DNA of 56,300 nucleotides, from positions 1-56,300 of IMG/VR virus record IMGVR_UViG_3300029442_000006; one strand, given 5' to 3'. Position numbers and translations under genes: made by a program. Origin of the DNA: a virus. Below, piece after piece: positions 4,080 to 39,451 of the stretch. Within the stretch, counting starts at the first letter, position 1; every line of letters starts with the position of its first letter. The notes beneath the pieces were generated by a model. That model searched no databases. It saw only the letters and a list, made by a program, of their open reading frames with translations, and was not told the DNA's origin.

Positions 4080-4541
4080 TTAAAGCACTCCTTGCACCTG
4101 AATCAGTTGATCGTGAATCGCGGGCTGTTGATTCATCATTGCGTCATTTTGGGATAACAATTTACGATTCCAGTCAGTTGCCTTTTGTGCGCCACCGCCC
4201 CAGCCGTGAGCAAATTTATTGACCTCTCCCATCTTTTTTAGAAAAGGATTTTCCTGAGGGCTAGATGTCGCCGGGATTGTCTTCAAAGGTTCCGACGTTG
4301 GCTGAAACGGATTCGTTTGCGGATAAGCAGCATTGACAGTGCCTCCCGGTTGAATCAATGGAGCCGCAGAAGGTTGCACCGGTTGCTGGGATTTTCCACT
4401 TGCCGAACTACTTTGGTTGGTGACGGCATCATCTACCTTGACCTTGTTAAGTCCCAAAGCATCCTTCATTTTGTCAAACGAAGCTCCGCTATTATCTTGC
4501 TTCGGTTTGTTTCTGCTCAAGACCGCAGTTAAGCATGACAT
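4080..4541 (-). CDS. small virion-cluster protein, paralogue of 4554-4832
   Basis: 153 residues starting MSCL. The central segment SSSASGKSQQPVQPSAAPLI, followed by a Gly/Pro/Asn-rich tract and KKMGEVNKF.HGWGG, is shared nearly unchanged with the upstream 92-residue ORF. The N-terminal ~45 residues and C-terminal ~35 residues are unique. There is no known family and no membrane segment. A Shine-Dalgarno-like AAGGAG precedes the start. The duplication suggests this is the full-length parent copy. Likely a minor virion or assembly protein by location. Confidence 0.7.
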   Translation of the reverse strand: MSCLTAVLSRNKPKQDNSGASFDKMKDALGLNKVKVDDAVTNQSSSASGKSQQPVQPSAAPLIQPGGTVNAAYPQTNPFQPTSEPLKTIPATSSPQENPFLKKMGEVNKFAHGWGGGAQKATDWNRKLLSQNDAMMNQQPAIHDQLIQVQGVL

Positions 4542-4545
4542 AGTG
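4204..4545. repeat. tandem duplicated block, copy 1 (copy 2 about 4618-4836)
   Basis: Long identical stretches recur between ~4204-4545 and ~4618-4836, including the segment with cctcccggttgaatcaatgg and the intergenic string gtgttctccttaaaaaccca. Copy 2 lacks about 120 bases of copy 1 near the start-codon end. The repeated intergenic string shows that the duplication included the junction between two genes. Confidence 0.75.
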
Positions 4546-4553
4546 TGTTCTCC

Positions 4554-4832
4554 TTAAAAACCCATCGAACCATTTCCAGTGGTTTGTTGGGAGTCAGTTT
4601 GTGCGTCACCGCCCCAGCCGTGATCAAATTTATTGACCTCTCCCATCTTTTTTAAATGATTTCCCTGAGGGCTAGATGTCGCCGGGTTCAAATGCTTCGA
4701 CTTTGGCTGAAACGGATTCGTTTGCGGATAAGCAGCATTGACAGTGCCTCCCGGTTGAATCAATGGAGCCGCAGAAGGTTGCACCGGTTGCTGGGATTTT
4801 CCACTTGCCGAACTACTTTGTAAGCATGACAT
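4554..4832 (-). CDS. chimeric shortened duplicate of neighbouring genes
   Basis: 92 residues. The start and middle match the 4080-4541 protein (MSCL, SSSASGKSQQ, GEVNKF.HGWGG). The last ~13 residues (QTTGNGSMGF) match the end of the 4844-5506 protein (QTTGNVSMGF). It therefore looks like the product of an unequal tandem duplication that fused the two flanking genes. Start codon and AAGGAG ribosome-binding site are intact, so it may still be translated, but it could equally be a decaying remnant. Confidence 0.5.
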   Translation of the reverse strand: MSCLQSSSASGKSQQPVQPSAAPLIQPGGTVNAAYPQTNPFQPKSKHLNPATSSPQGNHLKKMGEVNKFDHGWGGDAQTDSQQTTGNGSMGF

Positions 4833-4843
4833 ATGTGTTCTCC

Positions 4844-5506
4844 TTAAAAACCCATCGAAACATTTCCAGTGGTTTGATTTGAGTCAGTGACCGTGGACAA
4901 CCCCTTCAACTGACTGCCGATTGCTAGGGCTTGATTTAATGCTTGGTTTTCCTGCGACTGCGCTTGATTCACAGCACCGCTCTGGAGGCCAAGCTGCTGC
5001 GAGTAGTCCGCCTGCTTGTTCGCCTCTTGCTGGGCATAATTCTGTTCGGCAATGTTTTGAGCTTGGGTGTAGGCCGTGTTTTCCAAACCAGCCACTTGAC
5101 CGGTCACATCCGCCGCACTCTGCCGCGCGGCCTGTCCTGCCGCCGCTTGTGCGCCGCTTGAGTCAAGCATTCCCGCTGATTGTGCGCCGCCTTGAATCTG
5201 CGCTAAAGCATTCGCAAACGATTGCTGCCCGGCCAACTCAGTCGCGCCCACCGCATTGGATAAGGCTGGGTTGTTCACTGGATCAAACGCTCCGGGAGTC
5301 GGTGCGGCTGAAAAAATACCTTGCAAAGTGTTATTCACCAAATCCGTCGAAGCAACTTTTTCCGCCCCTCCCGAAGGATCGTACTGGTTTACTGCCTCGA
5401 CGCCCTTCGGCGCGAAACTCTTAAAGAAGGGAACCGACCACTCCGGCATATTGTTCACATTGGTCGTTCCACTCGAACTTGACATTCCACCAGATACGCA
5501 ACTCAT
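4844..5506 (-). CDS. Ala/Gln-rich virion-cluster protein, unknown
   Basis: 220 residues. The C-terminal half is an Ala/Gln/Asn-rich helix likely to form a coiled coil (AQNIAEQNYAQQEANKQADY). The N-terminus begins MSCVSGGMSSSSG and is Ser/Gly-rich. Composition resembles internal core or ejection proteins of short-tailed phages, but no family is recognised. The start overlaps the end of the sulfotransferase gene by 4 nt (ATGA). Its final residues are duplicated in the next small ORF. Confidence 0.75.
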   Translation of the reverse strand: MSCVSGGMSSSSGTTNVNNMPEWSVPFFKSFAPKGVEAVNQYDPSGGAEKVASTDLVNNTLQGIFSAAPTPGAFDPVNNPALSNAVGATELAGQQSFANALAQIQGGAQSAGMLDSSGAQAAAGQAARQSAADVTGQVAGLENTAYTQAQNIAEQNYAQQEANKQADYSQQLGLQSGAVNQAQSQENQALNQALAIGSQLKGLSTVTDSNQTTGNVSMGF

Positions 5507-6489: not shown

Positions 6490-6501
6490 GCCACTTACTA
6501 C

Positions 6502-6517
6502 TGCAACTTTCGGGCCG
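6502..6517 (-). promoter_or_regulatory. sigma-54-type promoter element, copy A
   Basis: On the minus strand it reads CGGCCCGAAAGTTGCA, followed by GTAGT. GG and GC are spaced as in the -24/-12 consensus (TGGCACG-N4-TTGCA), with one substitution (C for T) at the first base. Start ATG 6489 of the sulfotransferase is 12 nt downstream of the core. The predicted +1 would be about 2 nt before the ATG, giving a nearly leaderless mRNA. Confidence 0.7.
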
Positions 6518-6524
6518 AGTTTTG

Positions 6525-10648: not shown

Positions 10649-11815
10649 TTAGGCTTCTGTTCCGAGCGAGGAGGCTCCATGCAGTAACATGCAGGACTTC
10701 TCTTGGATTCGGAGGCCGAAGTCCGTATAGATGTCCCCGATGGTTCCGTCGGTCGTGAGTCCGTTTTCTGGAGTGAGTTTCCGCTCCAGCATCCATTGAC
10801 GGGTCTTGGTCTGCTGATCGCGGGTCGTCACGATTTCCAGTGCCGCCGGGTCAATAGCCGCCATGACATCGGAGCAGTTGTTTGAGAGGTGATCCACAAT
10901 CATCAGTTTCCACGTCTTCCCGCACATCCGGAAGGAGGTGATGTTGATGTTGAGAATGTTCTCATACACCGGCGTGATGTTGCCCTTATTGAACACGGCG
11001 CGATCAAACAACTCGCTACCGAGCCGGCTGACAAAGAGCCAAACGGTGCTGGAACGCATAAACCGGGTTCCCTGCGTCATCGCCGTCCGGAGCTTGTTGA
11101 TCGTGAACTGATTACTGCCGAACCCGCTGACGTTCGTGGTAATCATGTTCATGACGCCGCCGGTCTTGTACAGGGTGTTCCCTTGCGGGCCGGTGGTCTG
11201 CGCTTTGGCGTTGAACCACAAACCACGGTCAATCCCGCGCTTGTGTTCGTACATCGCCTGTTCGCGGTTGTGATAACCGCGTGCGCCGCCGTAGAACTTC
11301 ACGGTCTCAACCCATCGGCTTTGACCGTAGGTGTCCCAAGCGTTTTCGGCAAAGTTCGTGACTTGTGCCGGAACGCGCGAAACAACCGACGGACGCTGCG
11401 CCAATTCCTCGACCGCCGCCGAACCGAGATTCGGAATCGAACCCACGGTAAAGCCGGTGTTGTTGTCGAGGGTGACTTGACCGGTCGCGTAATTGACCGC
11501 CGTGACTAGGGCCACGGTCTGCCAATCCACGCGCAAGGTCAAACCGGGGCGAATGTACTTCACGTCATCCGCCGAAACGGTGATGTTCACACCGTCATTG
11601 GCTTGCGTCACCACGGTCACATAACCGGGGTCTTGGTCTTGAATGTTGATGCGGAACTCACGGTCGTCAACCGTCACGCGGTTGAGAGCCATAAGCAGCG
11701 TCAAGATTGTGGTTTCTTCGGGGCGGTACTTGAAAATCTCATTCGAGATGTCCAGTGGCCGCATCCCTGCTGGGGTTGTCGTCAGATATGCCTGACTGTT
11801 TACTGGTGCTGGCAT
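10649..11815 (-). CDS. major capsid protein (SU10/DUF5309-like)
   Basis: 388 residues. The N-terminal arm RPEETTILTLLMALNRV resembles the conserved start of SU10-type HK97-fold capsid proteins. The central region, REQAMYEHKRGIDRGLWFNA followed by a Gly-rich turn and GGVMNMITT, matches the helix and loop that precede the peripheral domain in that family. A good ribosome-binding site (GAGGAAAATACA) precedes ATG 11815. Neighbouring scaffold-like and decoration-size genes support the call. It assembles the icosahedral shell. Confidence 0.85.
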   Translation of the reverse strand: MPAPVNSQAYLTTTPAGMRPLDISNEIFKYRPEETTILTLLMALNRVTVDDREFRINIQDQDPGYVTVVTQANDGVNITVSADDVKYIRPGLTLRVDWQTVALVTAVNYATGQVTLDNNTGFTVGSIPNLGSAAVEELAQRPSVVSRVPAQVTNFAENAWDTYGQSRWVETVKFYGGARGYHNREQAMYEHKRGIDRGLWFNAKAQTTGPQGNTLYKTGGVMNMITTNVSGFGSNQFTINKLRTAMTQGTRFMRSSTVWLFVSRLGSELFDRAVFNKGNITPVYENILNINITSFRMCGKTWKLMIVDHLSNNCSDVMAAIDPAALEIVTTRDQQTKTRQWMLERKLTPENGLTTDGTIGDIYTDFGLRIQEKSCMLLHGASSLGTEA

Positions 11816-11870: not shown

Positions 11871-13193
11871 TCAAATCGGGCCGGGTCGTGCGCCTGTGAG
11901 CGCGGAGATGCCGGCAAGGTCGGTAACACTTCCACCCTTGCTACCATTCCCCATGTCAACGTAAGTCGGTTCTGCGCCGCCGCCGGGGATTGCCCCGAAT
12001 TGAAGTTTGCCGGTAATATCATTCCGACCTGCTTCAAACGACTTGACTTGAACCTCTTTCAGGATTTTACCGAACCGATTGACCTCGGCTAATGCTCGCA
12101 ACACCTTGAGCCGGGATTCCCCACGGATTGCGCCCTGTAAGGGACGGCCATCCGGGGTGTGCGTCGGGCCAAGCAACGAGTTCCACGCCGAAACCGCCGG
12201 CTTGTAGTAGGTCTCATAATCCGGAGACTTCTTGAGTTCCGTAATAAACCCTTCCACGAGCCGCTGATTTTGAGCGGTTTCTTGCTGTTGTTGCTGCTGA
12301 CGGTAAAACGCCTGCTGCTGTTCCTGTTGTTGACTGGCGAGCTTCCAAGCGGATAAGTCCGTATCCAGCTTTCGCCGCGCGGCAGGATAGCCTTCAATTT
12401 CTTGCAGCTTCTCATCGAAAGTCAGTTCGTCGCCCGGCTTCACCGTGTTGACGTACTGCTCCATCCATGCGCGTTCGAGTGCTTCTCTGGTATCTGCGAC
12501 CTGAGCATTCACCGGAACCACCTTCAGGCCAACTTCGGCTAAGGTAGATTCAAGTTCGAGCTGTGGTACAGCACGGGCAAACTCGACCACTGCATTGGCA
12601 GTTGGTCGTATATTGCCGCTTTGCGGGTCTTTGATAAACCGCTTACTGATTTCGGAGACACCTTGCTTGTAGGCTTCAACCTCTTTTCGGAGCGTGCCGA
12701 TCTCTTGCGACCGCCGCCCGATGAACGACTGAGCGTTTGTTAATTGTTGTTCCAGAGATGCCTTACCATCCGGGTTGATGACTTTTGCCATCTGCTCCGG
12801 AGTGGTGGGTAACTCTGCTTCTTGGGTTGCAGGAGTGGTCGGAGCGGGAGCCGTAGGCAAGGCCAACGCGCCAATCTCTTGCAGGTACTCTTCACCGGGG
12901 AGCTTGGCGGCTCCTGCGGCTGGGTCTGCTTGTCCATCCGGTGCGGTCTGACCGGCGGGTGCCGGAACCGTTCCGTCTGGCGATGCTGCCGGAGTAGCTT
13001 CGGGCGCAGGCTCAAGTTGCCCTTGTAGTGCGTAGTCACCTAAAACGGAAACCGCTTTAGCGGTGACGGACGGTTCTACAACCTGAGTGGGTGTACCGGT
13101 GGGCTGAGTTAGCGGCGACGGTGAAGCCGCCGGCTGAGTCGGAGCCGGTTGCGCGGGTGCTGCCACTGTCGGCATAGTTGCTGTATCTGCCAT
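11871..13193 (-). CDS. scaffold-like protein
   Basis: 440 residues, acidic and disordered at the N-terminus (Pro/Ala/Gln/Thr-rich, ~150 residues), then a long Gln-rich coiled coil with a run around QQEQQQAFYRQQQQQQET, and a Gly-rich end. This arrangement immediately before the major capsid gene is typical of phage scaffolding proteins, which guide shell assembly and are then lost. There is no HExxH or Ser-protease motif, so it is not a fused protease. Confidence 0.75.
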   Translation of the reverse strand: MADTATMPTVAAPAQPAPTQPAASPSPLTQPTGTPTQVVEPSVTAKAVSVLGDYALQGQLEPAPEATPAASPDGTVPAPAGQTAPDGQADPAAGAAKLPGEEYLQEIGALALPTAPAPTTPATQEAELPTTPEQMAKVINPDGKASLEQQLTNAQSFIGRRSQEIGTLRKEVEAYKQGVSEISKRFIKDPQSGNIRPTANAVVEFARAVPQLELESTLAEVGLKVVPVNAQVADTREALERAWMEQYVNTVKPGDELTFDEKLQEIEGYPAARRKLDTDLSAWKLASQQQEQQQAFYRQQQQQQETAQNQRLVEGFITELKKSPDYETYYKPAVSAWNSLLGPTHTPDGRPLQGAIRGESRLKVLRALAEVNRFGKILKEVQVKSFEAGRNDITGKLQFGAIPGGGAEPTYVDMGNGSKGGSVTDLAGISALTGARPGPI

Positions 13194-13377
13194 TTTCGAT
13201 TTCTTTCTTCTCCGCCATTCTTTCTTGGTTTTGAAACAGACTCGCGAGTAAGGGCGAGCTACCTGCTTCGTGATTGCTCACTGCCAAATTGGTAGCGGGA
13301 GATGAAGTTGAATCATCAGTCTCCTGCGTATGAAGCAGGCGTGTTACCGGGTTACACCATCCCGCAGTCTTAAATTT
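13194..13377. other. intergenic gap
   Basis: 184 bases between the coiled-coil gene and the scaffold gene. I see no sigma-54-type element, no strong hairpin with a U-tract, and no convincing ORF. GGAGAAG lies ~15 nt before the scaffold ATG. Confidence 0.5.
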
Positions 13378-14053: not shown

Positions 14054-14245
14054 TTATAGAACCGCTGTGGCCACGCGCTTACGGACTTTGTTCGTTAAAG
14101 CTGGCCCTTTACTGATGATGCTTCGGGTGTTCACCTTGCCCGCGCTGCCTTGAAAGTTTCCCTTTGGGCCTTTGCAATGTTTACAATCTGCAACCCGCGT
14201 TTGTCCGAGGATATAGTTCGGGCCTTTGTATTCAGGTTTTCCCAT
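14054..14245 (-). CDS. small basic protein, first gene of the capsid unit
   Basis: 63 residues, rich in Lys/Arg and Gly, with one CKHC pair (DCKHCKGPKG) in mid-sequence. It might bind nucleic acid or zinc. The start ATG 14245 lies 16 nt from a sigma-54-type element and has no visible Shine-Dalgarno sequence. The predicted leader is ~6 nt. The position as first gene of a late unit parallels the 53-residue basic protein before the portal. Confidence 0.6.
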   Translation of the reverse strand: MGKPEYKGPNYILGQTRVADCKHCKGPKGNFQGSAGKVNTRSIISKGPALTNKVRKRVATAVL

Positions 14246-14261
14246 TGTGCTATTCCACTAC

Positions 14262-14277
14262 TGCAACTTCCGGGCCA
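14262..14277 (-). promoter_or_regulatory. sigma-54-type promoter element, copy B
   Basis: Minus strand TGGCCCGGAAGTTGCA, followed by GTAGT. It matches the consensus TGGCMYG-N4-TTGCA with exact -24/-12 spacing. It sits between the zincin gene stop (14287) and ATG 14245, and would drive the scaffold, capsid and nozzle genes. Confidence 0.8.
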
Positions 14278-14286
14278 AGCGACCAG

Positions 14287-14709
14287 CTACGGCATATTGA
14301 CTACCGCCTTGTCATACGTCTCCCACGAAATCCCAAGCTGACGGCAAATCAATTTCTCAATCTTGGTGGCAAATTTATGCTGCCGACGGTAGGGGGCTTT
14401 CGGGTGATTACCGGGTTCGGCTGTGCTGGAGTGTTTACCCACTTCTCGATCCTGCTCAAATTTTATATCAAAGTCCGAAACTTCGGCATCTGTAATCCCT
14501 TCTCTCAGGCAAAGGTACGCCTCAATCAATTCGTGGACAGCAACCATGAACTCGTAATCCGCATTATTCATCTTGGAAACACGGACATCCAAGCGAATGC
14601 AATCTTTGCCATCTAAAAACGGAATCCAATCACCGACCGTCGGGTATCTGTGGTTCTTGTGATCAATCGGATAAACCAACAAGGAAGGCATCTGTTTTTG
14701 AGTTTTCAT
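14287..14709 (-). CDS. zincin-like metallohydrolase-type protein
   Basis: 140 residues. The motif FMVAVHELIEAYLC is a HExxE variant of the zincin active site, followed by an acidic segment (EVSDFDIKFE) and EPGNHPKAPYRRQHKFATKI, where the His may be a further ligand. The combination HELIEA + EPG..APY is a pattern I associate with uncharacterised phage proteins. The start overlaps the ATP-grasp stop, so the two are coupled. A role in modifying or trimming the ATP-grasp product, or in head maturation, is conceivable (inference). Confidence 0.65.
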   Translation of the reverse strand: MKTQKQMPSLLVYPIDHKNHRYPTVGDWIPFLDGKDCIRLDVRVSKMNNADYEFMVAVHELIEAYLCLREGITDAEVSDFDIKFEQDREVGKHSSTAEPGNHPKAPYRRQHKFATKIEKLICRQLGISWETYDKAVVNMP

Positions 14710-15953
14710 TAAAATTCAATCCCCAATTCTGCCGCCTTCTCAAAGGCGTCTTCGGCCTGCTTCACCGCCGCTTCTTGAATGTCCACATCATGTCCAGAAA
14801 TCATTTTAGACACTTCCTTGATCGTCGCTTCGCACTCTTTCAGGCTCTCACCCGTTGCGATAACGTCACCGATCTCAATGCTTTCGTGAGGCTGGGGCGC
14901 AATCCACAATTCGTCATTCACCTTGACTGCGTTAGAAAACGCCACATATGGCCATGCTTCCTTCTCGACATCCACCTTGACCCAATGTTTCGCAGCGTAA
15001 GGACAATGTATCCGCGCCAGCACAGCATATTTTGCCGTCGGTTCAGGAACCACAAGCCGACCTTCCGCGCCGGCGTAGATGATTTCGGATAGATTCGACC
15101 AGAGCTTGCCGTAACACGGGCCGGGCGGGATCGGCATCCGCACTGTCATGTCAATCAAGTAGCCCTTGCGGTCATCCTCAGCCACGCGAAGCTCGTTCGA
15201 ATAGAACGTCGCGCCGCCTAACTTCTTAAACGCCGGAGCCACCCCCGCGTTGCAATCTCGAACGGTTTCCCACAAATCAGGATAATCAAACACCCGCCCA
15301 ACGTAGCCGCAGTCTTTAACCTCAATCCCAGCTAACACCCGCGACGGGTACTCCCCATTGATTACCCACGTGTCGCAACCAATCTCAACACCATCAATCT
15401 TTTCTTCCGCCAAAAACTTAAACTCTTCACGGAACGGCCCTAAACCATTCAGCAAATCAATCTTCAACGTCTCAAAATTGGCCGCCTTGAATGTTTCGCG
15501 GAGTCCGCGATAGCGAGACAGCTTGATAAAAGTCTCCGGATGCTTGGCGCAATACCTTTCCAGTGCTTCCATGCCAGTGATCTGTTCGGTTCCCGGTGTC
15601 GGCATTCCTCTATGACTTTGCAGGTTGCGAATCAACCAGCGGTCGAGTTCTAATTTCTCCGAATCTCCAGCCCCCCACACTCGCCGCCCTAGCCGCCGCT
15701 GTTCATTTGCCCAACTTCCAAAATAATTGTCCGGACAAATAATCAGTTCAGTGTCGTCTAGGTAGTCGTCAAGGTCTTCCACCCGCTCAATCTCGTTAAA
15801 GCCTGAGCCAATGGCCGCACCCTTAATGTCCGGGAAAGCCGTCGCCCACGGCGTCCAGTAGCGCACCTTGCCAAAATCTTGCGCCAGCCGTAACGCCAGC
15901 CAGAGGTTTAACCCGTGATCAACCAGAAGGCAGGATTTTTTGGAAAAATCCAT
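14709..15953 (-). CDS. ATP-grasp ligase-like protein (PurD-like architecture)
   Basis: 414 residues from ATG 15953, overlapping the portal stop (TGATG). GTG 15956 is the alternative. The N-terminal ~115 residues form a Rossmann-like domain (CLLVDHGLNLWLALRLAQDF; ELIICPDNYFG). The central region has ATP-grasp hallmarks: ETFIKLSRYRGLRETF (phosphate-binding Lys strand) and FLAEEKIDGVEIGCDTWVING (hinge and metal-binding strand, like the EE..pG.E..vd of PurD). The end IATGESLKECEATI matches the C-terminal lobe of the same family. ATP-grasp enzymes join a carboxylate to an amine via acyl phosphate. Substrate is unknown. The purine pathway is unlikely since no other pur gene is present. Confidence 0.65.
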   Translation of the reverse strand: MDFSKKSCLLVDHGLNLWLALRLAQDFGKVRYWTPWATAFPDIKGAAIGSGFNEIERVEDLDDYLDDTELIICPDNYFGSWANEQRRLGRRVWGAGDSEKLELDRWLIRNLQSHRGMPTPGTEQITGMEALERYCAKHPETFIKLSRYRGLRETFKAANFETLKIDLLNGLGPFREEFKFLAEEKIDGVEIGCDTWVINGEYPSRVLAGIEVKDCGYVGRVFDYPDLWETVRDCNAGVAPAFKKLGGATFYSNELRVAEDDRKGYLIDMTVRMPIPPGPCYGKLWSNLSEIIYAGAEGRLVVPEPTAKYAVLARIHCPYAAKHWVKVDVEKEAWPYVAFSNAVKVNDELWIAPQPHESIEIGDVIATGESLKECEATIKEVSKMISGHDVDIQEAAVKQAEDAFEKAAELGIEF

Positions 15954-18079
15954 CACCGCTCCGGTACCCCGCCGGGACTGCGTGGAATCTTGGTCGCCAT
16001 CCCGCCAAGCCCTTTCAAGCTTTCCAGCGCGTGTTTCTTGTCGTTCTCGCTCGACTTGTGCGCGTTCTGTAAGCCGATTTGTTCCGGCTTGGAAGCTCCA
16101 CCAACTCGCGACGGGATTAAGCCACCAGCCTTTTCAAGCTGCCGTTGTGCATCGGGCGGTAAATCTTTGTACTTCATGGAAGCAACCACCGCCGGCGGTG
16201 GGTGCGGTTGCGAATCCATCATCGCCTTTTTCTTCGCAAATTCCTCGTCTGTGAGTAAGAACCGCTCGGCGGAGTCCAAGCCCAAGCCTTCCACAATCTC
16301 GCGCCAGAGTTCTTGCTGCTTAATCCTCGGCGCAACCTCCGGCATCGCCTGAGCCATCTGCCCAGCCTGCGCCAGTAATGACGCGCGAGTCTTAGTGTCC
16401 ACCGTCCGGTTGACACCCAACACCTCCACATGCCACCGCCCTTGAATGTCTTCCGGAGTAACCTCCACCCAATCCTTGAAGCCACGAGCCATTAAAACCT
16501 TGTTTTGTCCGATAATCTTGAGCTTTTGGGGGACAGTCATCACCTGCTGGATGTCAGCGCAAATCATGTTCAGCCCGTCTTCGATCCCCTGCTCGGCCAT
16601 CAAAGCGGTAAAACTCTTCGCCTGATTCGAGGCCGAGAGAAGCTGTTGAATCCCGCCTAACGTCTCCGTTCCTTTGCCTAATCCAGAGTCACCAGCAATT
16701 CCCCGCGAATAGTCCGGCGTCGCTCCCACCTTCGCAATGCTCAATCGCGCCCGTTCCATTGATTGCCAAACATCAGGCGGAACATTCGGTGCTTTCCAGT
16801 CTAGTATGCCTGCCACGCGCCCCACACGAATGCGCTTGCCCGGCTCACGAGTCAAATCCGCCAAATCCTCCACACCAGCATCATGCTCAACCAAAGTCAT
16901 CGGATTACGCTGCTGCTCCATCATATCGGCGGATAGGTTCGTCAGGACGTTGAGCTTGCCCTGCAAATCTTCCAATTGCTCCGGAATCCCTCGCGCCTGC
17001 CAAACCTGTGGTGAACGCGGCTTAAACTTAATCTCCGAATACGGTTTCAGCCCGTGGTAATGTGGGTTCGCCATCTCTTTGAGTAGAAACTTGCGATCCC
17101 CAATAATCATAATCTTATCGCAGCCGTAACCCAGTGGGCCGGATTCGCTATAAATCAACAATTCGGCATACTTCACCGCATTCTGCCCGTACACCTCATT
17201 TCCACCACCGCGTACATCATAACCAACCGCCGCCAACCGCTCGTAAAGGTCAAAATGTCTTTCCGACCACTCGCCTAAGGCGTAACCTTCCGTCCGATCC
17301 AGCGCGAAAAAGCCTTCCATCTCTTCGGTGTGTTGGTAGCCGGCAATCTTTCCCAACGCCTGAACTTCCCGCAGCGGAAGGATTAACCGCTCGATGAAGT
17401 ACGGCATCTCCTGAATGGTCGCACCGGTCGCCGCCGGGTAGCAATCAAAGCGCGAAATCACCCGCGACTTCGGCCATGCTTCAAAACTTTGAATCGTCTC
17501 GCGCTTCAACCCAATCTTGATACCGTATTCGGAACCGGCAATGATTGGAACATTGCGAGTCGTCCGTACCATCTTCGGTTGGACAATGTGCCGCTCTACG
17601 CCATTGCCAAAAAAGGTCGCCTCTTGCGCCTGATAGAACTTCGCCATCTTGTACTTGACGTGTTCGTTCAAGACGTAACCCATCACCAACTGCATCATCT
17701 CGCGCTCGACTTGGCCTTGATCATCCTTCGCCTTGACGTTATGCACCACGTCTTTAGCGAAAATCGGAGCCATAATTGTCTCAATGTTTTCCCATGCGAC
17801 ATTGGAAGTCTCTGGCTCAAAGAACCTCGACCAAAACGGCCAATCCCCCGGCAGAATGCTATTCACCTGCATCCAGTGGCCGAGCGCAGCCTCCTTAAAC
17901 GACCGATCAAACCGCTCCGAGACTGCCATCCGCTCCAAAACGTATTTCACCCGCGCATCTTCTTGAACCCGATTATTGCGCGGAGCCGTTAAAACAGTCG
18001 CGCTCAACGTGGAAAATGAAGCCTCCGGACCGTCGCCGGGGGCTGTAACAGGGGCAGCATTGAGTGTGGTGGTAGGCAT
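15953..18079 (-). CDS. portal protein
   Basis: 708 residues, long as in P22/N4-like portals. N-terminal region PWFW-like segment GDWPFWSRFFEPETSNVAWE, the ENIETIMAPIFAKD helix typical of short-tailed phage portals, then beta wing and stem region (GKLNVLTNLSADMMEQQ; TPDYSRGIAGDSGLG). The C-terminal ~100 residues are Gln/Pro/Lys-rich and may be a barrel or disordered tail. It forms the dodecameric DNA channel and binds the terminase. It lies 8 nt after the 76-residue gene. Confidence 0.8.
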   Translation of the reverse strand: MPTTTLNAAPVTAPGDGPEASFSTLSATVLTAPRNNRVQEDARVKYVLERMAVSERFDRSFKEAALGHWMQVNSILPGDWPFWSRFFEPETSNVAWENIETIMAPIFAKDVVHNVKAKDDQGQVEREMMQLVMGYVLNEHVKYKMAKFYQAQEATFFGNGVERHIVQPKMVRTTRNVPIIAGSEYGIKIGLKRETIQSFEAWPKSRVISRFDCYPAATGATIQEMPYFIERLILPLREVQALGKIAGYQHTEEMEGFFALDRTEGYALGEWSERHFDLYERLAAVGYDVRGGGNEVYGQNAVKYAELLIYSESGPLGYGCDKIMIIGDRKFLLKEMANPHYHGLKPYSEIKFKPRSPQVWQARGIPEQLEDLQGKLNVLTNLSADMMEQQRNPMTLVEHDAGVEDLADLTREPGKRIRVGRVAGILDWKAPNVPPDVWQSMERARLSIAKVGATPDYSRGIAGDSGLGKGTETLGGIQQLLSASNQAKSFTALMAEQGIEDGLNMICADIQQVMTVPQKLKIIGQNKVLMARGFKDWVEVTPEDIQGRWHVEVLGVNRTVDTKTRASLLAQAGQMAQAMPEVAPRIKQQELWREIVEGLGLDSAERFLLTDEEFAKKKAMMDSQPHPPPAVVASMKYKDLPPDAQRQLEKAGGLIPSRVGGASKPEQIGLQNAHKSSENDKKHALESLKGLGGMATKIPRSPGGVPER

Positions 18080-18087
18080 GTTTTATC

Positions 18088-18318
18088 TCAAAGATTCGGC
18101 TTGAGCTTGTGGCGGTGGATTAACCAACAGAGCCATGCGCTCAATCGTGAGGGGTGTCCAAGACAACCGATTTTGCACTGCTCAAAAAACGTAAAATACG
18201 TCCAACGATAGCCATGTGTAAATTCCACCAACTTAGCCTGACGCTTCAACCCTCCCACTGTAATCCGCCTCGGCAAGGGCAACGCCACCGCCAGAATTAG
18301 CAGACCAAACAGCTTCAC
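18088..18318 (-). CDS. small membrane-anchored or secreted protein
   Basis: 76 residues from GTG 18318, which overlaps the stop of the preceding basic protein (GTGA). Residues 1-15 are hydrophobic (KLFGLLILAVALPLP), then basic and aromatic residues (HGYRWTYFTFFEQC). It may be an anchored peptide. No family recognised; the coupled start and position before the portal support translation. Confidence 0.5.
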   Translation of the reverse strand: MKLFGLLILAVALPLPRRITVGGLKRQAKLVEFTHGYRWTYFTFFEQCKIGCLGHPSRLSAWLCWLIHRHKLKPNL

Positions 18319-18476
18319 AGCGACCTCGCGATAGATTCTTGCTGGTTTAATACTCCGCCACTCCCGCCACCAGAGACGCGCGGACGCTTATTCGTCGGAA
18401 CAACCGAAGAAGGGCGGGGGAACTTCCGCTTGCGATTCGGGATTTTAGTGCGGTATTTGACTGTCGGTTTACTCAT
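18315..18476 (-). CDS. small basic protein at head of the portal unit
   Basis: 53 residues: Lys/Arg/Pro-rich (KYRTKIPNRKRKFPRP), Gly/Ser-rich middle (SGGGSGG), ending SIARSL. ATG 18476 is 15 nt from a sigma-54-type element, with no Shine-Dalgarno between. It is first of the unit portal-ATP-grasp-zincin. High basic content suggests nucleic-acid or protein-binding. No family recognised. Confidence 0.55.
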   Translation of the reverse strand: MSKPTVKYRTKIPNRKRKFPRPSSVVPTNKRPRVSGGGSGGVLNQQESIARSL

Positions 18477-18491
18477 CTATGTATCAACTAC

Positions 18492-18507
18492 TGCAACTTC
18501 CGGGCCA
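18492..18507 (-). promoter_or_regulatory. sigma-54-type promoter element, copy C
   Basis: Minus strand TGGCCCGGAAGTTGCA then GTAGT, identical in core to copy B (14262-14277) and sharing two more upstream bases. It lies just downstream of the terminase terminator and 15 nt before ATG 18476. The predicted leader is about 5 nt. Confidence 0.8.
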
Positions 18508-18515
18508 AGCGCGAC

Positions 18516-18614: not shown

Positions 18615-20366
18615 CTATATTGATTTACCGAGATTCCACCGGCGTTGCGGAGTGTAAGACTGTTGCGGACGTTTTGCGCTGCTTCCCCACGAAGTCGGAT
18701 TCAGGTTCGGATCGCCCACAATCGGCTTTGCCGCTTGCGCCATAGCGTTGCGATTGGCTTGGCTGCTGGGCATTACTGTGCCGCCAACAACTCTCGCCCC
18801 GACTCCGCCACTGGCAGCACGCTTATCTAGTCCAATCACATTCCAAGTCATGTATGACCAGCAATCTACAACGTGGTCAAACTCGCCATCTTTGACGGGC
18901 AAGCCATCCTCGCCACGATGATAACCCCCGCGTAACGCCGCCAATAACTTCGGGCAACCCGTTGGATCAACCTCTAGGCTCCCAGACGATATTATGGATT
19001 GAGAAACATCCAGACGAGTATCTACCGCCGCCACGCTCGTTTTAACGATAATACCATACGCCGCGCAAACCTGAATGGAACTTTCACCGGTCTTGTCAGA
19101 ACGCTGGTGGCCGGCGGGATCACCGTAGTATTCGACGATGGCTCGCGGAAAGACACGCGCCACATACGGCAGTAGGTAATCTTCGAGAAAATGCCCGATT
19201 GTGACGTTGTTGGCGATCGTTTCCTTTAAAACGTGCATTCGCAGTTGTACCGGCTTGCCGGATTCACCCGCCAGAGGCTCAATCTGGCTGAAGGTTGCCG
19301 CTGTCTCAGTAAAACCGAAATCCAAACCGACAAAGACTTTCAACGACGGATCGTAAAGCTGTGGAATCGCTGAAATCTTCTCCGTGTCGCAAAAAACCGG
19401 CAAACCCGCCGGTACGGCAAAATCTACTTCCATTTCTCGGTTCCACTTTCTCGTGCTGTAAGAAGGCCGCACCGCATCGAACCAAGCTCGACCCTCCGCA
19501 CCGGCCGGGTCTTTCTCCGTATCTGCACTGTAATGGATTCGCAAATGCCTAAACGCATTGTAATCCCACGCCTGCAAGCCCTTTGCGAGGATTTGCATTG
19601 GTGGATTTTCCTGACCCACTGGAGCCGCCGCCGAATCATCTAAGGCTCCATACCCAAGCCGCCAAAAGAAATTACGCCCATTGGCGCTCGAAACAATGTT
19701 AAACCGTCCGCCGGCACCGACGCAGGGTAGGGCGGCAGCATAGATTTCATCCTGCCCAGACTGAAACGCCGCCTCATCCCAATTGATTCCAGAGTAAGTA
19801 AAGCTTCGCAACTGGTTCGCTGCATCCGCCGCGCGACCACGTTCCGCCGCTATTGCCTCAATTCGACTGGTCGGAATCGCGCTCTCCGCATCATGAAACA
19901 CCCGCAACTCGCCCTCCACAAATTCCACAACCGGCTTTTCCCATTCCGAGGGTATCTCTTGGTAAATGTACTGCAACCGGCTTTGCAGGTGATCACTAGC
20001 GTCCGCAAAAGTCTTGCATATCCACGCCACCCTCTGACCGCGATTCTTCAAAACCCAATGCAACCATAACGCCGCCAACAGCCATGTGATCAAGATTTGC
20101 CGGCTTTTCTCAATCCTCAGCCTCCGATTGCGCTCCCACTCTCGTACTGTCATCTGCAGGTAAGCCTTGTCAGGGAAACGCCGGCGCGGATCAAGACCAG
20201 TTGTTTTCGCCAGCTCATCGAATGTGTAGCAGCAATCGCGCACGAACTCCCACGGATCATCGGGTATCGGCTTCCGAATCGCCGGCTTAATCTTTGTCGC
20301 CGCCAAAAAAGTATCAGCGATGACTTTGTTGACCGTAAGTTTCGATGTCTTGAGCGAGAGCGGCAT
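18615..20366 (-). CDS. terL: terminase large subunit
   Basis: 583 residues. ATPase domain: the Walker A-like RIEKSRQILITW (lacks the GK of the classical loop, as in many TerL), Walker B in INWDEAAF, and a following coupling segment FNIVSSANGRN. Nuclease domain: VGLDFGFTETAA, with a further acidic position in DGEFDHVVDCWSYM. It packages DNA into the prohead with the portal. GGAGGAACATC precedes ATG 20366. It overlaps the small subunit gene by 53 nt. Confidence 0.9.
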   Translation of the reverse strand: MPLSLKTSKLTVNKVIADTFLAATKIKPAIRKPIPDDPWEFVRDCCYTFDELAKTTGLDPRRRFPDKAYLQMTVREWERNRRLRIEKSRQILITWLLAALWLHWVLKNRGQRVAWICKTFADASDHLQSRLQYIYQEIPSEWEKPVVEFVEGELRVFHDAESAIPTSRIEAIAAERGRAADAANQLRSFTYSGINWDEAAFQSGQDEIYAAALPCVGAGGRFNIVSSANGRNFFWRLGYGALDDSAAAPVGQENPPMQILAKGLQAWDYNAFRHLRIHYSADTEKDPAGAEGRAWFDAVRPSYSTRKWNREMEVDFAVPAGLPVFCDTEKISAIPQLYDPSLKVFVGLDFGFTETAATFSQIEPLAGESGKPVQLRMHVLKETIANNVTIGHFLEDYLLPYVARVFPRAIVEYYGDPAGHQRSDKTGESSIQVCAAYGIIVKTSVAAVDTRLDVSQSIISSGSLEVDPTGCPKLLAALRGGYHRGEDGLPVKDGEFDHVVDCWSYMTWNVIGLDKRAASGGVGARVVGGTVMPSSQANRNAMAQAAKPIVGDPNLNPTSWGSSAKRPQQSYTPQRRWNLGKSI

Positions 20367-35232: not shown

Positions 35233-35591
35233 GGTGTGAGTAAAGTTGCGGGGGGTTGCGTTCCGATAATCTGCGCGGCGTTAATCGTCCAAGCGTCTTG
35301 GTTTGCGCCACTGACTTGACCGACGGTGTAGGCGGGGAAGTTCGTGCTTGTTAGGAACGCGCTGATATTCGCCCGCGCCACGTCAAAGTTGCCGTTGATA
35401 GTATCCCACCGCCACGCCGCGCCGACTCCATTCTGCCATGTTGTGTAACTTGGATTCGGCACTGTCGCCAGCACGATATTGGTCTTTTCAATCTGGCAGT
35501 TTGAGCCGACGAAATAACCCGGACTCCATTGCGTGACCTGCCCGGTGCTGTTAGTGGTGCAAAACATTAGTGCGGCGAGTAGTATCATCAT
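35229..35591 (-). CDS. small secreted protein after the fibre
   Basis: 120 residues. Signal peptide MMILLAALMFCTTNSTG. The mature part has WSPGYFVGSNCQIE, YTTWQNGVGAAWRWDT and is Asn/Thr/Ala-rich. It may be a fibre-associated or receptor-binding accessory protein. Coupled to the fibre stop. Confidence 0.65.
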   Translation of the reverse strand: MMILLAALMFCTTNSTGQVTQWSPGYFVGSNCQIEKTNIVLATVPNPSYTTWQNGVGAAWRWDTINGNFDVARANISAFLTSTNFPAYTVGQVSGANQDAWTINAAQIIGTQPPATLLTP

Positions 35592-38323
35592 TTGAGTATC
35601 ATCCCCCGGCAGGAAACTGAATTGGAAAGTCCAAAGCCGTCAAAAGCGTAGATTCCAAAAATATAAGCCGTTGGGATATTGGTTTGTGTCCCGCACCATC
35701 TCCATTCCGGCGCACGACCGTTGATGGCCACACTCTGATAATAGGAGAGTGTCGCATTGGTCGGGTTGTGCTCGATTGCAAACCACTCAACATCTGTCGG
35801 TTGGAATCGTGTGCCGCCAAAACTCCGACGAGTACTCCCTAGCGCATCGTTAAAAGTGTTAGTGTCCGCCGCCGGGCTGGATGTATAAACCGTGTTGCCA
35901 ATACCGCGTAGAATCTCAGTGCCACTAGTCCCGGAATAAACCAGTGCGTGAACATTGCTAACACCTGTTTGCGAGCTTGCGACACCCCACGTGCGGTAGT
36001 CAGCCCCCAAACTTTCTCTCACCGCGTTTGCATTTCCCCATTGGCGGGCTATCAAGCATTCAAACCGGTGCCACGTGTTCGTTGAGGGAGACAGCAGCCC
36101 GACAATGCGTGATTGTTGAACCAGCTCGTTCGGTGACTGGAAGTCCAACCAATTCGCCCGGTTGGTTATTACCCAACTGCCGACGTTAATCACGGCTAGG
36201 CTACTCCCGTTTGTGGTCAACTGAGTCGGCCAGTATTCGACACTGCCGGTCATTTTGGTAACATCCGGTTCACCCACTGCTGCCCAGCCAAAAGCGTTTG
36301 ACATCACGACTGCGCCTGTGCGTGTGTCGTTGGAGAAGTTGACCGGAGCGACATAGGTTGCCACCGCATTCGTACCGCCTAACAAGCTTACCGTCACGCC
36401 GGTCGAGGAGTTGCTGACTGTGGCGTAGAGCAGCCCCGCGCTGGTGTTCGTGGAGCCCGTGGTGACGGCGACTAAATTATATTGTGCATTCGGGTCATTC
36501 GTCCCAATCCCCCACACTGAGCCGCTGCCGCTGACGATGCCTGCTAACTCACCGGTATTGGTCAATGTGATGCCGGAAATCTTCCCACTAATTGCCGACG
36601 ATAACGTGTTGGACAACGACACTTCCCGGTTCGTCGCCGCGCTAAGTAAGTCGTAACCGAGAGAGGTCACGGCATTACTCACCGCCGCCGCCGCGCCAAC
36701 TACGTCAAACAGATTGCTACCAAGACTGCCAATGTCACGATTCCACGCTGCCGCAACTACGCCGCTAAATGTTCCGCTGCCTGTCCATATCACAGCGCTG
36801 CCGGCATTGGTCGCGTAGAGGCTGTTTGTCGCAAACGCTGAGTTGGTGGCGAATGTGCTGCTGGCAGAATATCCGCTATTCGTGGCGAATCCCGCATTCG
36901 TGGCATAGCCGGCGTTCGTCGCGTACAGGCTGCTGGCCGAGTAAAGCGATTGGGTAGCGTACAGGCTGGAAGCTGAGAACGTCGCGCTGCCGCTGTTTGT
37001 GGCATAAAGCGCACTGCTAGCAAAAGTCGCTGTCTTACTGTTCGTCGCGTAGTTTCCAGCGGTCGAGAAATCCGCATTGGTCGCATGGCTTACGTTAGCC
37101 GCCGCGCCAATCGGGTCAAACGGCAACCCCGCAACATTCAAGTTCGTGACCGTGATCGGCGCAAACAACGTTCCAATCGCCTGCCCGTTCAACTGAATCG
37201 GCCCTCCGATTAGATTGAGTGCGCCAACCCCATTCGAGCAACTCGTAACTGTTAGAACCACCCCTGAGCAAACCAAGCTACCGCCGTTTTGGAATGCTAG
37301 CATTGTCAAGTTTGTGATATTGTTTCCACCGGCATTAACCGTGTTAGTGAGTACGTATGGGTTACTCCCTGTTACCGTAATGCTGCCGCCATTTTGAATC
37401 GCTTGACCATTGATGATGAATCCGCCATTCGTGACCGCTTGGCCTTGCAAGACCACGTTGCTGCCACCAACCGTGAGACTGCCGTTAAGTGTTAGGTTGC
37501 TACCCACGATGTTGCCGCCGGTATCAACGGTGAACGGCGAGTAGGAGTCGGAGCCGCCAACATAGAGGCCGGAGTCGCCGATTAAATAACCGCCTTCGAT
37601 ATTAAGTCCATAGGCTGTGAGGTTGCCGCCTTGGACCCAAAACCCTGTAGAAGCACCCCTTGCCCAGTCGGCGCTGTCGGCGGAGCTGGCGGTGCCGGCC
37701 CAGTTGGCGTAGCTGGCGTTGTTGGCGTTGTCAGCGTAGCCGGCATTAGAGGCGTAGCCGGCTGAGTCGGCGGTGCCGGCTGAGTCGGCGTAGTTGGCTT
37801 CGTTGGCGTAGCCGGCGGAGTTGGCGTAGCCGGCGTAGCCGGCGTTGTTGGCGTCGCCGGCGTTGTCGGCGTATGATGAGGACGTCGAGCTACCAGCATT
37901 TGCCACCGTCCCACTGGCCGAAAGTCCAGAAGCAAACGCAACATTGTTGCTAGTGATTAGCCCATTGACGTCGTTGGAGGAGATAATTGGAGTCGAGATT
38001 ATGAGAAAGTTATTACTGACCGTCCCGAGGTCCGTCTTGCTATTAACGATACCCAAGGTGGTATCGTTGGTGCTGGAGACAATCTGGTTGACTTGGTTAG
38101 AGGTTAGCGCATCGCCTGATGTAACGCCTCCGCCTGCGGTAGTTTGCGAAGTCCCGTCGCCAAAGATGATCCCTCCCTGAAAAAATCCCCAGCCATTCGG
38201 CACAAGACTCAAGGAGTGTGGTGCAGCCGGGTTACTGGAGAGCGAAAGGTTTTTCCCTTGATATTGAGCGTGGACTGAACACACGCAAAGAATTAGACCG
38301 AGCGTTGTAAGGATTCGTTTCAT
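35588..38323 (-). CDS. repetitive secreted tail fibre-like protein
   Basis: 911 residues from ATG 38323, coupled to the adaptor stop (ATGA). Signal peptide ILTTLGLILCVCSVHAQ. Two long Ala/Asn/Tyr/Ser tracts in 3- to 6-residue periods (e.g. NAGYAGYANSAGYANEANYA; ATNSGYSASSTFATNSAFAT) as in rod-like trimer fibres. Pro-poor beta regions between. The C-terminal ~250 residues (WPTQLTTNGSSLAVINVGSW; HRFECLIARQWG) resemble a lectin-like receptor-binding domain. A signal peptide on a cytoplasmically assembled fibre is unexpected. Confidence 0.75.
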   Translation of the reverse strand: MKRILTTLGLILCVCSVHAQYQGKNLSLSSNPAAPHSLSLVPNGWGFFQGGIIFGDGTSQTTAGGGVTSGDALTSNQVNQIVSSTNDTTLGIVNSKTDLGTVSNNFLIISTPIISSNDVNGLITSNNVAFASGLSASGTVANAGSSTSSSYADNAGDANNAGYAGYANSAGYANEANYADSAGTADSAGYASNAGYADNANNASYANWAGTASSADSADWARGASTGFWVQGGNLTAYGLNIEGGYLIGDSGLYVGGSDSYSPFTVDTGGNIVGSNLTLNGSLTVGGSNVVLQGQAVTNGGFIINGQAIQNGGSITVTGSNPYVLTNTVNAGGNNITNLTMLAFQNGGSLVCSGVVLTVTSCSNGVGALNLIGGPIQLNGQAIGTLFAPITVTNLNVAGLPFDPIGAAANVSHATNADFSTAGNYATNSKTATFASSALYATNSGSATFSASSLYATQSLYSASSLYATNAGYATNAGFATNSGYSASSTFATNSAFATNSLYATNAGSAVIWTGSGTFSGVVAAAWNRDIGSLGSNLFDVVGAAAAVSNAVTSLGYDLLSAATNREVSLSNTLSSAISGKISGITLTNTGELAGIVSGSGSVWGIGTNDPNAQYNLVAVTTGSTNTSAGLLYATVSNSSTGVTVSLLGGTNAVATYVAPVNFSNDTRTGAVVMSNAFGWAAVGEPDVTKMTGSVEYWPTQLTTNGSSLAVINVGSWVITNRANWLDFQSPNELVQQSRIVGLLSPSTNTWHRFECLIARQWGNANAVRESLGADYRTWGVASSQTGVSNVHALVYSGTSGTEILRGIGNTVYTSSPAADTNTFNDALGSTRRSFGGTRFQPTDVEWFAIEHNPTNATLSYYQSVAINGRAPEWRWCGTQTNIPTAYIFGIYAFDGFGLSNSVSCRGMILK
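36780..37080 (-). repeat. coding repeat tract in fibre, block 1
   Basis: Short reiterated units on the plus strand (gtcgcgtagaggctgtttgt and close variants) giving ATNSxx/ASSxYA repeats. Period is a multiple of 3. Confidence 0.7.
37640..37880 (-). repeat. coding repeat tract in fibre, block 2
   Basis: Reiterated ggcgtagccggcgttgttgg-like units giving ANSAGYA/ADNAGYA repeats. Length can be expected to vary by slippage. Confidence 0.7.
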
Positions 38324-39405
38324 GATAGGAAAGCCACCGCCCAATTTCCGTTGAAAGCCGATCCACCCCCCGGAGCCACCGGAACGCTAATCCTCACGGT
38401 GTCACTTCCGGGAAGCTGCGTGAATACCGGCACGCCGGGATCCGGACCTGTGGATGGAAGGACGCCAATAGACAGCGAACCGGTCGCTGTCATTCCGACT
38501 ACTGGAATATCTACATAAAGATTCGCCCCGCTAATGCTGAAGATGCCATGTTGTCCCACGGGAGCCGGCGGTGTCGCCGGTGTTCCACTACCGCCACCAC
38601 ACGCAATCATGGAACCCGTTCTCGGCATTGGAGGAACGTAAATTCGATCATTTGTCCCTTGTCGAATTGACCGGTCTTGCAACCACGCTGAACGGAGCAA
38701 TTCTTCCCCTTGTTGTCCGAACAATGCCGCGCGGTCTTCCTCAAATGAGTTCAACGAGACTGCGCTAGCCACCAGATAACACAATTCATTGAAGAGTTTA
38801 TCACTGAAAAAGTCGGATTTTGGAGTCGAGTAGAATGTATCATCCGGCAGGGGGAGAAAAGCATCATACTCCAATTTTAGCATTACCTGAGCATCCAGCG
38901 GCGGCGCGGTTAAAACCATCTGCCCCTCTAAATCCATCCAGCCGCTATGCTGTTGGTCGGTAAATTGAAACCATTCATTCCAACCACCCCACCAGTCGGA
39001 AAGCGAACGCTGCGGTCGCTGATTGCGTTCCATTTCTGTAACCGAGCGTAACGCTCGACCGCCTGTGATGCCATTCGGAGTGACCGGACGAACAAACCGC
39101 ATTTTCTTATAATCAGACGGGTAGGGGATTCCGTAATAAGTTGTGGGGTTTGCCGGGTCTAATGGTGGATACCAGACGTATTGATGCGCTTGCGCCAATC
39201 GCCAGTTACCGTCACTAATCTTTTCCAACTTACCCGAACGACTAGAGTACCACGGCATTTGTAGTTTGCGGTGGACTACCTGAATGGAAGGGCGGATCAT
39301 CGGCGCACCGGGTAAAGCGGTTGCTGCCGTTGTCGAGCCGGCAAGGTTCGGACGGTTGAGCATCCGAACTACATAATTTTCTACATCTGCATAAGTTGTT
39401 GCCAT
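38320..39405 (-). CDS. head-tail adaptor-like protein (SU10-adaptor type) with C-terminal extension
   Basis: 361 residues. The first ~260 residues match the adaptor pattern: TYADVENYVVRMLNRPNLAG at the start, then YPSDYKKMRFVRPV and LTAPPLDAQVMLKLEYDAFL (final beta strands), DDTFYSTPKSDFF and helix FNELCYLVASAVSLNSFEED. The last ~90 residues are a Gly/Pro-rich beta domain (GIFSISGANLYVDIPVVGM) that may bind fibre or nozzle. It links portal and tail. ATG 39405 lies 21 nt after a sigma-54-type element, without Shine-Dalgarno. Confidence 0.7.
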   Translation of the reverse strand: MATTYADVENYVVRMLNRPNLAGSTTAATALPGAPMIRPSIQVVHRKLQMPWYSSRSGKLEKISDGNWRLAQAHQYVWYPPLDPANPTTYYGIPYPSDYKKMRFVRPVTPNGITGGRALRSVTEMERNQRPQRSLSDWWGGWNEWFQFTDQQHSGWMDLEGQMVLTAPPLDAQVMLKLEYDAFLPLPDDTFYSTPKSDFFSDKLFNELCYLVASAVSLNSFEEDRAALFGQQGEELLRSAWLQDRSIRQGTNDRIYVPPMPRTGSMIACGGGSGTPATPPAPVGQHGIFSISGANLYVDIPVVGMTATGSLSIGVLPSTGPDPGVPVFTQLPGSDTVRISVPVAPGGGSAFNGNWAVAFLS

Positions 39406-39426
39406 GAGTTTCTGGCAACTGACTAC

Positions 39427-39442
39427 TGCAACTTTCGGGCCA
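39427..39442 (-). promoter_or_regulatory. sigma-54-type promoter element, copy D
   Basis: Minus strand TGGCCCGAAAGTTGCA then GTAGT. Lies between the activator stop (39452) and ATG 39405. Predicted leader about 11 nt. It would drive adaptor, fibre, lysis-like and phosphoesterase genes. Confidence 0.8.
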
Positions 39443-39451
39443 ACAGGTAGC

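Follow-up and report, generated by a model that had tools for sequence, protein, structure and literature searches.

The DNA analysed in this study, a 56.3 kb IMG/VR virus record (hereafter the window), carries in its late portal unit the genes of a PurD-derived ATP-grasp ligase and of a small HExxE metalloprotease-like protein. The reading that we favor, with a probability of roughly 0.4, is that the two form a late ATP-driven ligase and its partner acting on a peptide or protein, most likely one of the virion. On sequence evidence, the ligase belongs to a phage family separated from PurD, is paired with the HExxE protein, and is found in the context of virion modules. Since the pair travels together in many uncultured viruses amid particle-building genes, its probable role is the finishing or modification of proteins at a late stage of infection.

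The ligase and HExxE genes overlap within the portal unit

All genes of the late unit described here are on the minus strand. The ATP-grasp gene (14709–15953; 414–415 aa) directly follows that of an SU10-type portal protein (15953–18079; SU10_portal, 8.5e-15), with the portal stop and the ATP-grasp start overlapping as TGATG (ATG at 15953; an alternative GTG start is at 15956), while its own stop overlaps as TAATG the start of the gene encoding the 140-aa HExxE protein (14287–14709; ATG at 14709). The original prediction of three overlapping portal, ATP-grasp, and HExxE genes was correct in its ORFs and gene calls, and the SU10_portal match upholds the portal. Upstream of the portal unit lies the terminase large subunit gene (TerL, 18615–20366; phrog_2, 4.8e-23). 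Downstream of the HExxE gene, the order is a 63-aa basic ORF (s63, 14054–14245), two small ORFs, a tRNA-Met gene located within the late operon (13290–13366), a scaffold-like ORF (11871–13193) assigned by size, composition, and position with no useful library match, and the SU10-type major capsid protein gene (10649–11815; SU10_MCP, 2.8e-16).

A 22-nt repeat, TTGGCCCGRAAGTTGCAGTAGT, has four copies in the window (39422–39443, 18487–18508, 14257–14278, and 6497–6518), only on the minus (late) strand, vs. none expected by chance. The copy at 18487–18508, TTGGCCCGGAAGTTGCAGTAGT, precedes a 53-aa basic ORF (s53, 18315–18476) and the portal, ATP-grasp, and HExxE genes, while the copy at 14257–14278 closes the unit, between the end of the HExxE gene and s63; the two copies are positioned about 11 nt ahead of the start codons of the 53-aa and 63-aa ORFs, respectively. 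Because these copies bracket the unit, the ligase and HExxE genes are probably co-transcribed with the portal gene. We take the element to be sigma54-like, as its GG-N10-GC core fits the sigma54 −24/−12 promoter consensus; sigma54-type late promoters would be unusual in a phage. A search of about 1 Mb from related loci yielded no sigma54-like core, and the viral contig collection contained no exact copy of the 22-nt element.

The phage ATP-grasp ligases are a family distinct from PurD

As a single query, the window ATP-grasp protein matched nothing in Pfam, PHROGs, NCBIfam, or PDB. The profile of a 34-member family alignment (A1), in which GARS_A and GARS_C were found in 17/34 and 14/34 members, respectively, matched PurD structures over the full length (5vev, 3.1e-47, profile positions 6–422), and the PurD-like ATP-grasp identity first assigned by inspection is thereby upheld. 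Further, the phage proteins share with PurD (GARS) the ATP-binding lysine (K145 in the window protein, codon 15524–15522), kept in 211 members at alignment columns 141/142, the acidic metal ligand, an E or D at column 275 in 211/212 alignment rows, and a conserved arginine (R279 in model numbering) kept in essentially all 211 members. The window protein carries a D-x-T-x-R block, D269–R273, at 15152–15138, and one phage clade even retains the GPNTG-like loop of PurD.

In contrast, compared with four PurD proteins from bacterial genomes, which served as the reference set, 211/211 members differed at five diagnostic positions. In detail, K102 is changed to R, D210 to E, and N277 to T, C, A, or S, so that the D-H-K and E-F-N-x-R residues of PurD are not kept, and D282 and E284 are replaced throughout the phage family, while R-[LF]-G-D-P-E, which we take to be the PurD signature, was present in 4/4 aligned host PurDs. 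Because every member deviates at these five positions, the sequences indicate that the phage proteins are a separate PurD-derived ligase family and not a purine gene, for which the label purD would be mistaken. A plain purD gene, serving as an auxiliary metabolic gene that boosts purine synthesis, would agree with the full-length PurD similarity, and with an ocean survey that lists phosphoribosylamine–glycine ligase as virus-enriched (PMC11360552). This explanation is nevertheless very improbable in view of the five residues lost in all members, the conserved partner, the late virion-gene context, and the absence of any purine gene from the window proteins that were scanned, the last of which had been anticipated by the original prediction. 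In pipelines that score GARS domains, members of this family could be labeled purD and tallied under purine auxiliary genes; the five changed positions provide a simple sequence test against such miscalling.

Being too diverse for a contig scan, the A1 alignment was split into two clades for scanning, and at least 511 and 141 viral-contig stretches were confirmed in the two clade scans, a family size of about 650 or more with overlaps not removed. By tblastn, the annotated phage collection yielded one clear relative only, MW202796, from an uncultured spring phage. An intein-like insert was observed in one ATP-grasp gene (L026, 3174–5594), within the conserved YMIDFC/ARAPSPP motif.

The HExxE protein has six invariant residues

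Exact 8-residue searches using the single window proteins gave no matches. A degenerate DNA pattern made by hand, HE-[hydrophobic]-[I/V]-E-A ... G-[I/V] ... V ... F-D, was then scanned over 2.9 million viral contigs and gave 85 loci, with relatives encoded in 85/85. Six residues, H59, E60, E63, D81, H111, and E118 (the HELIEA codons are at about 14535–14518 in the window), are invariant across about 155 relatives; H59, E60, E63, and D81 were partly imposed by the first search pattern, while H111 and E118 are outside it, and the relatives gathered via the ATP-grasp scan keep all six, too. The HExxE motif noticed in the window protein is thus not a chance occurrence.

The protein itself has no HExxH, and its motif variant is accompanied by the invariant D81, H111, and E118. 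Judged from the sequence, HExxE followed by an acid (D81) 18 residues further on resembles the gluzincin spacing closely, and the protein is named metalloprotease-like here rather than zincin. It matched no known peptidase family in Pfam and no solved structure significantly in PDB, while the metal-binding domain of DtxR came up repeatedly as a weak match. The C-terminus of the HExxE protein is extended by an Erv1/ALR-like thiol-oxidase domain in 32 loci by motif count (including L062, L002, L006, and L052); the members scanned against Pfam gave 3e-8. To our knowledge, Erv1/ALR-like sulfhydryl oxidase domains have rarely been reported in phages, and this fusion fits a role in protein modification. 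HExxE relatives were also observed on proteobacterial MAG contigs (L093 and L095–L099), without an adjoining phage-type ATP-grasp gene and in one case (L096) near ftsZ/ftsA-like genes; these are possibly captured copies.

The HExxE gene depends on the ATP-grasp gene more than the reverse

The pairing was evaluated from both sides in a sample of mostly metagenomic contigs, in which records are possibly fragments and loci are partly redundant. From the HExxE side, 46/85 loci had a same-strand ATP-grasp gene no more than 300 nt away, in either gene order, and 18/32 of the records with non-adjacent genes had one elsewhere. Lack of conservation of the pair had been named beforehand as a possible refutation; the HExxE proteins were homologous in all 85 loci, and an ATP-grasp gene was present in 55/60 HExxE loci whose records were 19 kb or longer (a few records give two loci). 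Consistently, among 53 non-redundant pairs, with ATP-grasp identities down to 12%, the inter-pair distances of the ATP-grasp and HExxE proteins correlated with r = 0.43, while the maximum in 2000 shuffles was 0.17. Fusions of the two proteins were sought as proof of contact, and none was found.

From the ATP-grasp side, an HExxE gene was within 4 kb in 59/160 loci (80 from each of the two clades), and when 67 of the other ATP-grasp records were searched in full, only 6 more came to light. The dependence is therefore asymmetric, as HExxE genes nearly always occur with an ATP-grasp gene, while the latter often occurs without an HExxE gene. Because the HExxE gene is missing from the majority of loci found by way of the ATP-grasp, the protease-like partner is not an obligate one.

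The pair resides in several kinds of virion modules

Most neighbors of the ATP-grasp gene belong to the virion; they encode portals from two families, the proteins of a terminase/scaffold block, or tail fibres. A portal gene adjoins the pair in the window, and L188 encodes a relative of the window portal (2e-15); a portal cluster is present in L009, L054, L066, and L067, with a phrog_145 portal match of 6e-33 tested on L066. About 24 loci carry in one block a 746–748-aa protein (k6/c12), the ATP-grasp, a scaffold-like protein, and TerL; k6 is referred to as a putative portal, since profile comparison gave no proof of portal identity. In the second clade (A8), a tail-fibre cluster was found in 62/80 loci, while ejection-like and polyvalent ADP-ribosyltransferase-like proteins are the neighbors in other loci, and a minority of the HExxE genes adjoin DNA polymerase A and primase genes. 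The expectation that the pair would recur beside portal genes in other phages was thus borne out in several lineages, but many relatives reside beside tail fibres, ejection, or polyvalent proteins. As the pair is tied to no single structural gene, these results argue against one fixed capsid target.

In the portal-linked group defined by the k6 block, an unrelated small HExxH protein is encoded upstream. It was found in 14/17 portal-block records without an HExxE gene vs. 0/14 tested records with one, while it was found in 0/6 of the tail-fibre group without HExxE, so that the latter have neither protein. L185 encodes a k6 protein with 62% identity to that of the group (via L065), and has HExxE without HExxH. 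This pattern fits a lineage-specific exchange of one protease for another, and the displacement by HExxH may have been a single evolutionary event. The exchange, together with the near-gluzincin spacing, argues against the HExxE protein being some other metal-binding protein, such as a nucleotide hydrolase or a metal-dependent assembly factor. The database results, with no peptidase or structure match and a recurring DtxR likeness, speak for such a protein, which we consider rather unlikely, and which would be compatible with any explanation of the ligase.

Proposed function of the pair

In the favored reading, the ATP-grasp enzyme would probably convert a carboxylate to an acyl phosphate, thereby activating it for amide-bond formation with an amine, and the HExxE protein would probably cleave or trim the same peptide or protein. 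Because the genes of the pair accompany virion modules, a structural or ejected protein of the phage, or a late-made peptide, would be the most likely substrate. A more specific version, which we regard as unlikely in its full extent, would be a widespread virion-finishing system of uncultured tailed phages, in which the PurD-derived ligase joins an amino acid, a peptide, or a side chain onto virion proteins by amide bonds, and has as its partner a small metalloprotease, HExxE or HExxH, that can be exchanged, in some cases with the fused Erv1/ALR thiol oxidase, to produce covalently modified or crosslinked particles. If virion proteins are indeed modified by the pair, phages would have a new enzymatic means of building covalent particles, and the family would be a source of ligases.

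Another type of tailed-phage ATP-grasp ligase, accompanied by other peptide-acting enzymes, occurs in the amidoligase/ATP-grasp/glutamine-amidotransferase cassettes of phiEco32, LUZ24, RIO-1-like, and PSA-HP1 phages, and those of the first three have been proposed to modify the cell wall against superinfection (PMC5498523, PMC10580990; gene list in PMC3890496). By analogy, the present pair could modify peptidoglycan peptides and block superinfection, with the HExxE protein cutting wall peptides or a precursor, and its movement among structural modules like a self-contained cassette would suit this role. However, the known cassettes sit among early or replication genes, while the present pair is mostly in late virion modules, and their amidoligase, amidotransferase, and cyclotransferase genes were not seen beside the pair; among the window proteins scanned, which cover part of the window ORFs, no Amidoligase_2 or glutamine amidotransferase was seen. 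The cassette ATP-grasp proteins are also unrelated in sequence by tblastn, as phiEco32, LUZ24, and RIO-1 cassette phages were not among the matches listed when several family members were searched against 50,697 phage records. Wall modification is therefore improbable.

The late position could alternatively set only the timing, with the pair making or modifying a small peptide or metabolite, or modifying a host protein, independent of the virion. The pair is retained while its neighbors change, and the HExxE gene is present in replication modules too, both of which favor this explanation, but the ATP-grasp side has a strong association with virion modules, and no conserved precursor peptide was found. 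With respect to the latter, the two small basic proteins to which the original prediction had drawn attention do exist as ORFs (s53 and s63), while a role for them is unsupported, as neither has relatives in any locus fetched. An activity independent of the virion is accordingly improbable. As substrates of the enzyme pair, s53 and s63 were dropped from consideration.

Relation to known ligases and proteases

Phage ATP-grasp ligases and ligase–peptidase pairs are both known kinds. Bacterial gene pairs of an ATP-grasp peptide ligase and a peptidase were reportedly described by Iyer et al. in 2009; these resemble the present pair in having adjoining ligase and peptidase genes, but they involve another ATP-grasp subfamily, while here the HExxE protein falls outside known peptidase families and the genes are in a phage late operon. 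Phages also encode small zincins with HExxH (SprT-like or uncharacterised), which are short metalloprotease-like proteins, while the present protein has HExxE instead of HExxH and constitutes a family of its own with no profile match. The R2K-type ATP-grasp peptide ligases of jumbo phages are thought to modify proteins (PMC7824862), and appear to be another family as described, with no protease partner noted for them there. No description of the present family, its pairing, or its late position was found in the open-access literature searched.

Additional features of the window

Several other features were observed in the window. Two end-open ORFs (1–2661 and 40581–56300, minus strand) share a reading frame when the record ends are joined, so that a circular genome would encode a single protein of about 6100 aa there; bases 1–441 resemble 54942–55295 and 56204–56300 at about 96%. 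A run of repeats with a 9-nt period is located at 37666–37908 within the ORF 35588–38344 (minus strand), and three near-identical direct-repeat pairs of 134, 57, and 55 nt are present at 4184–4888, around the ORFs 4080–4541 and 4844–5506.
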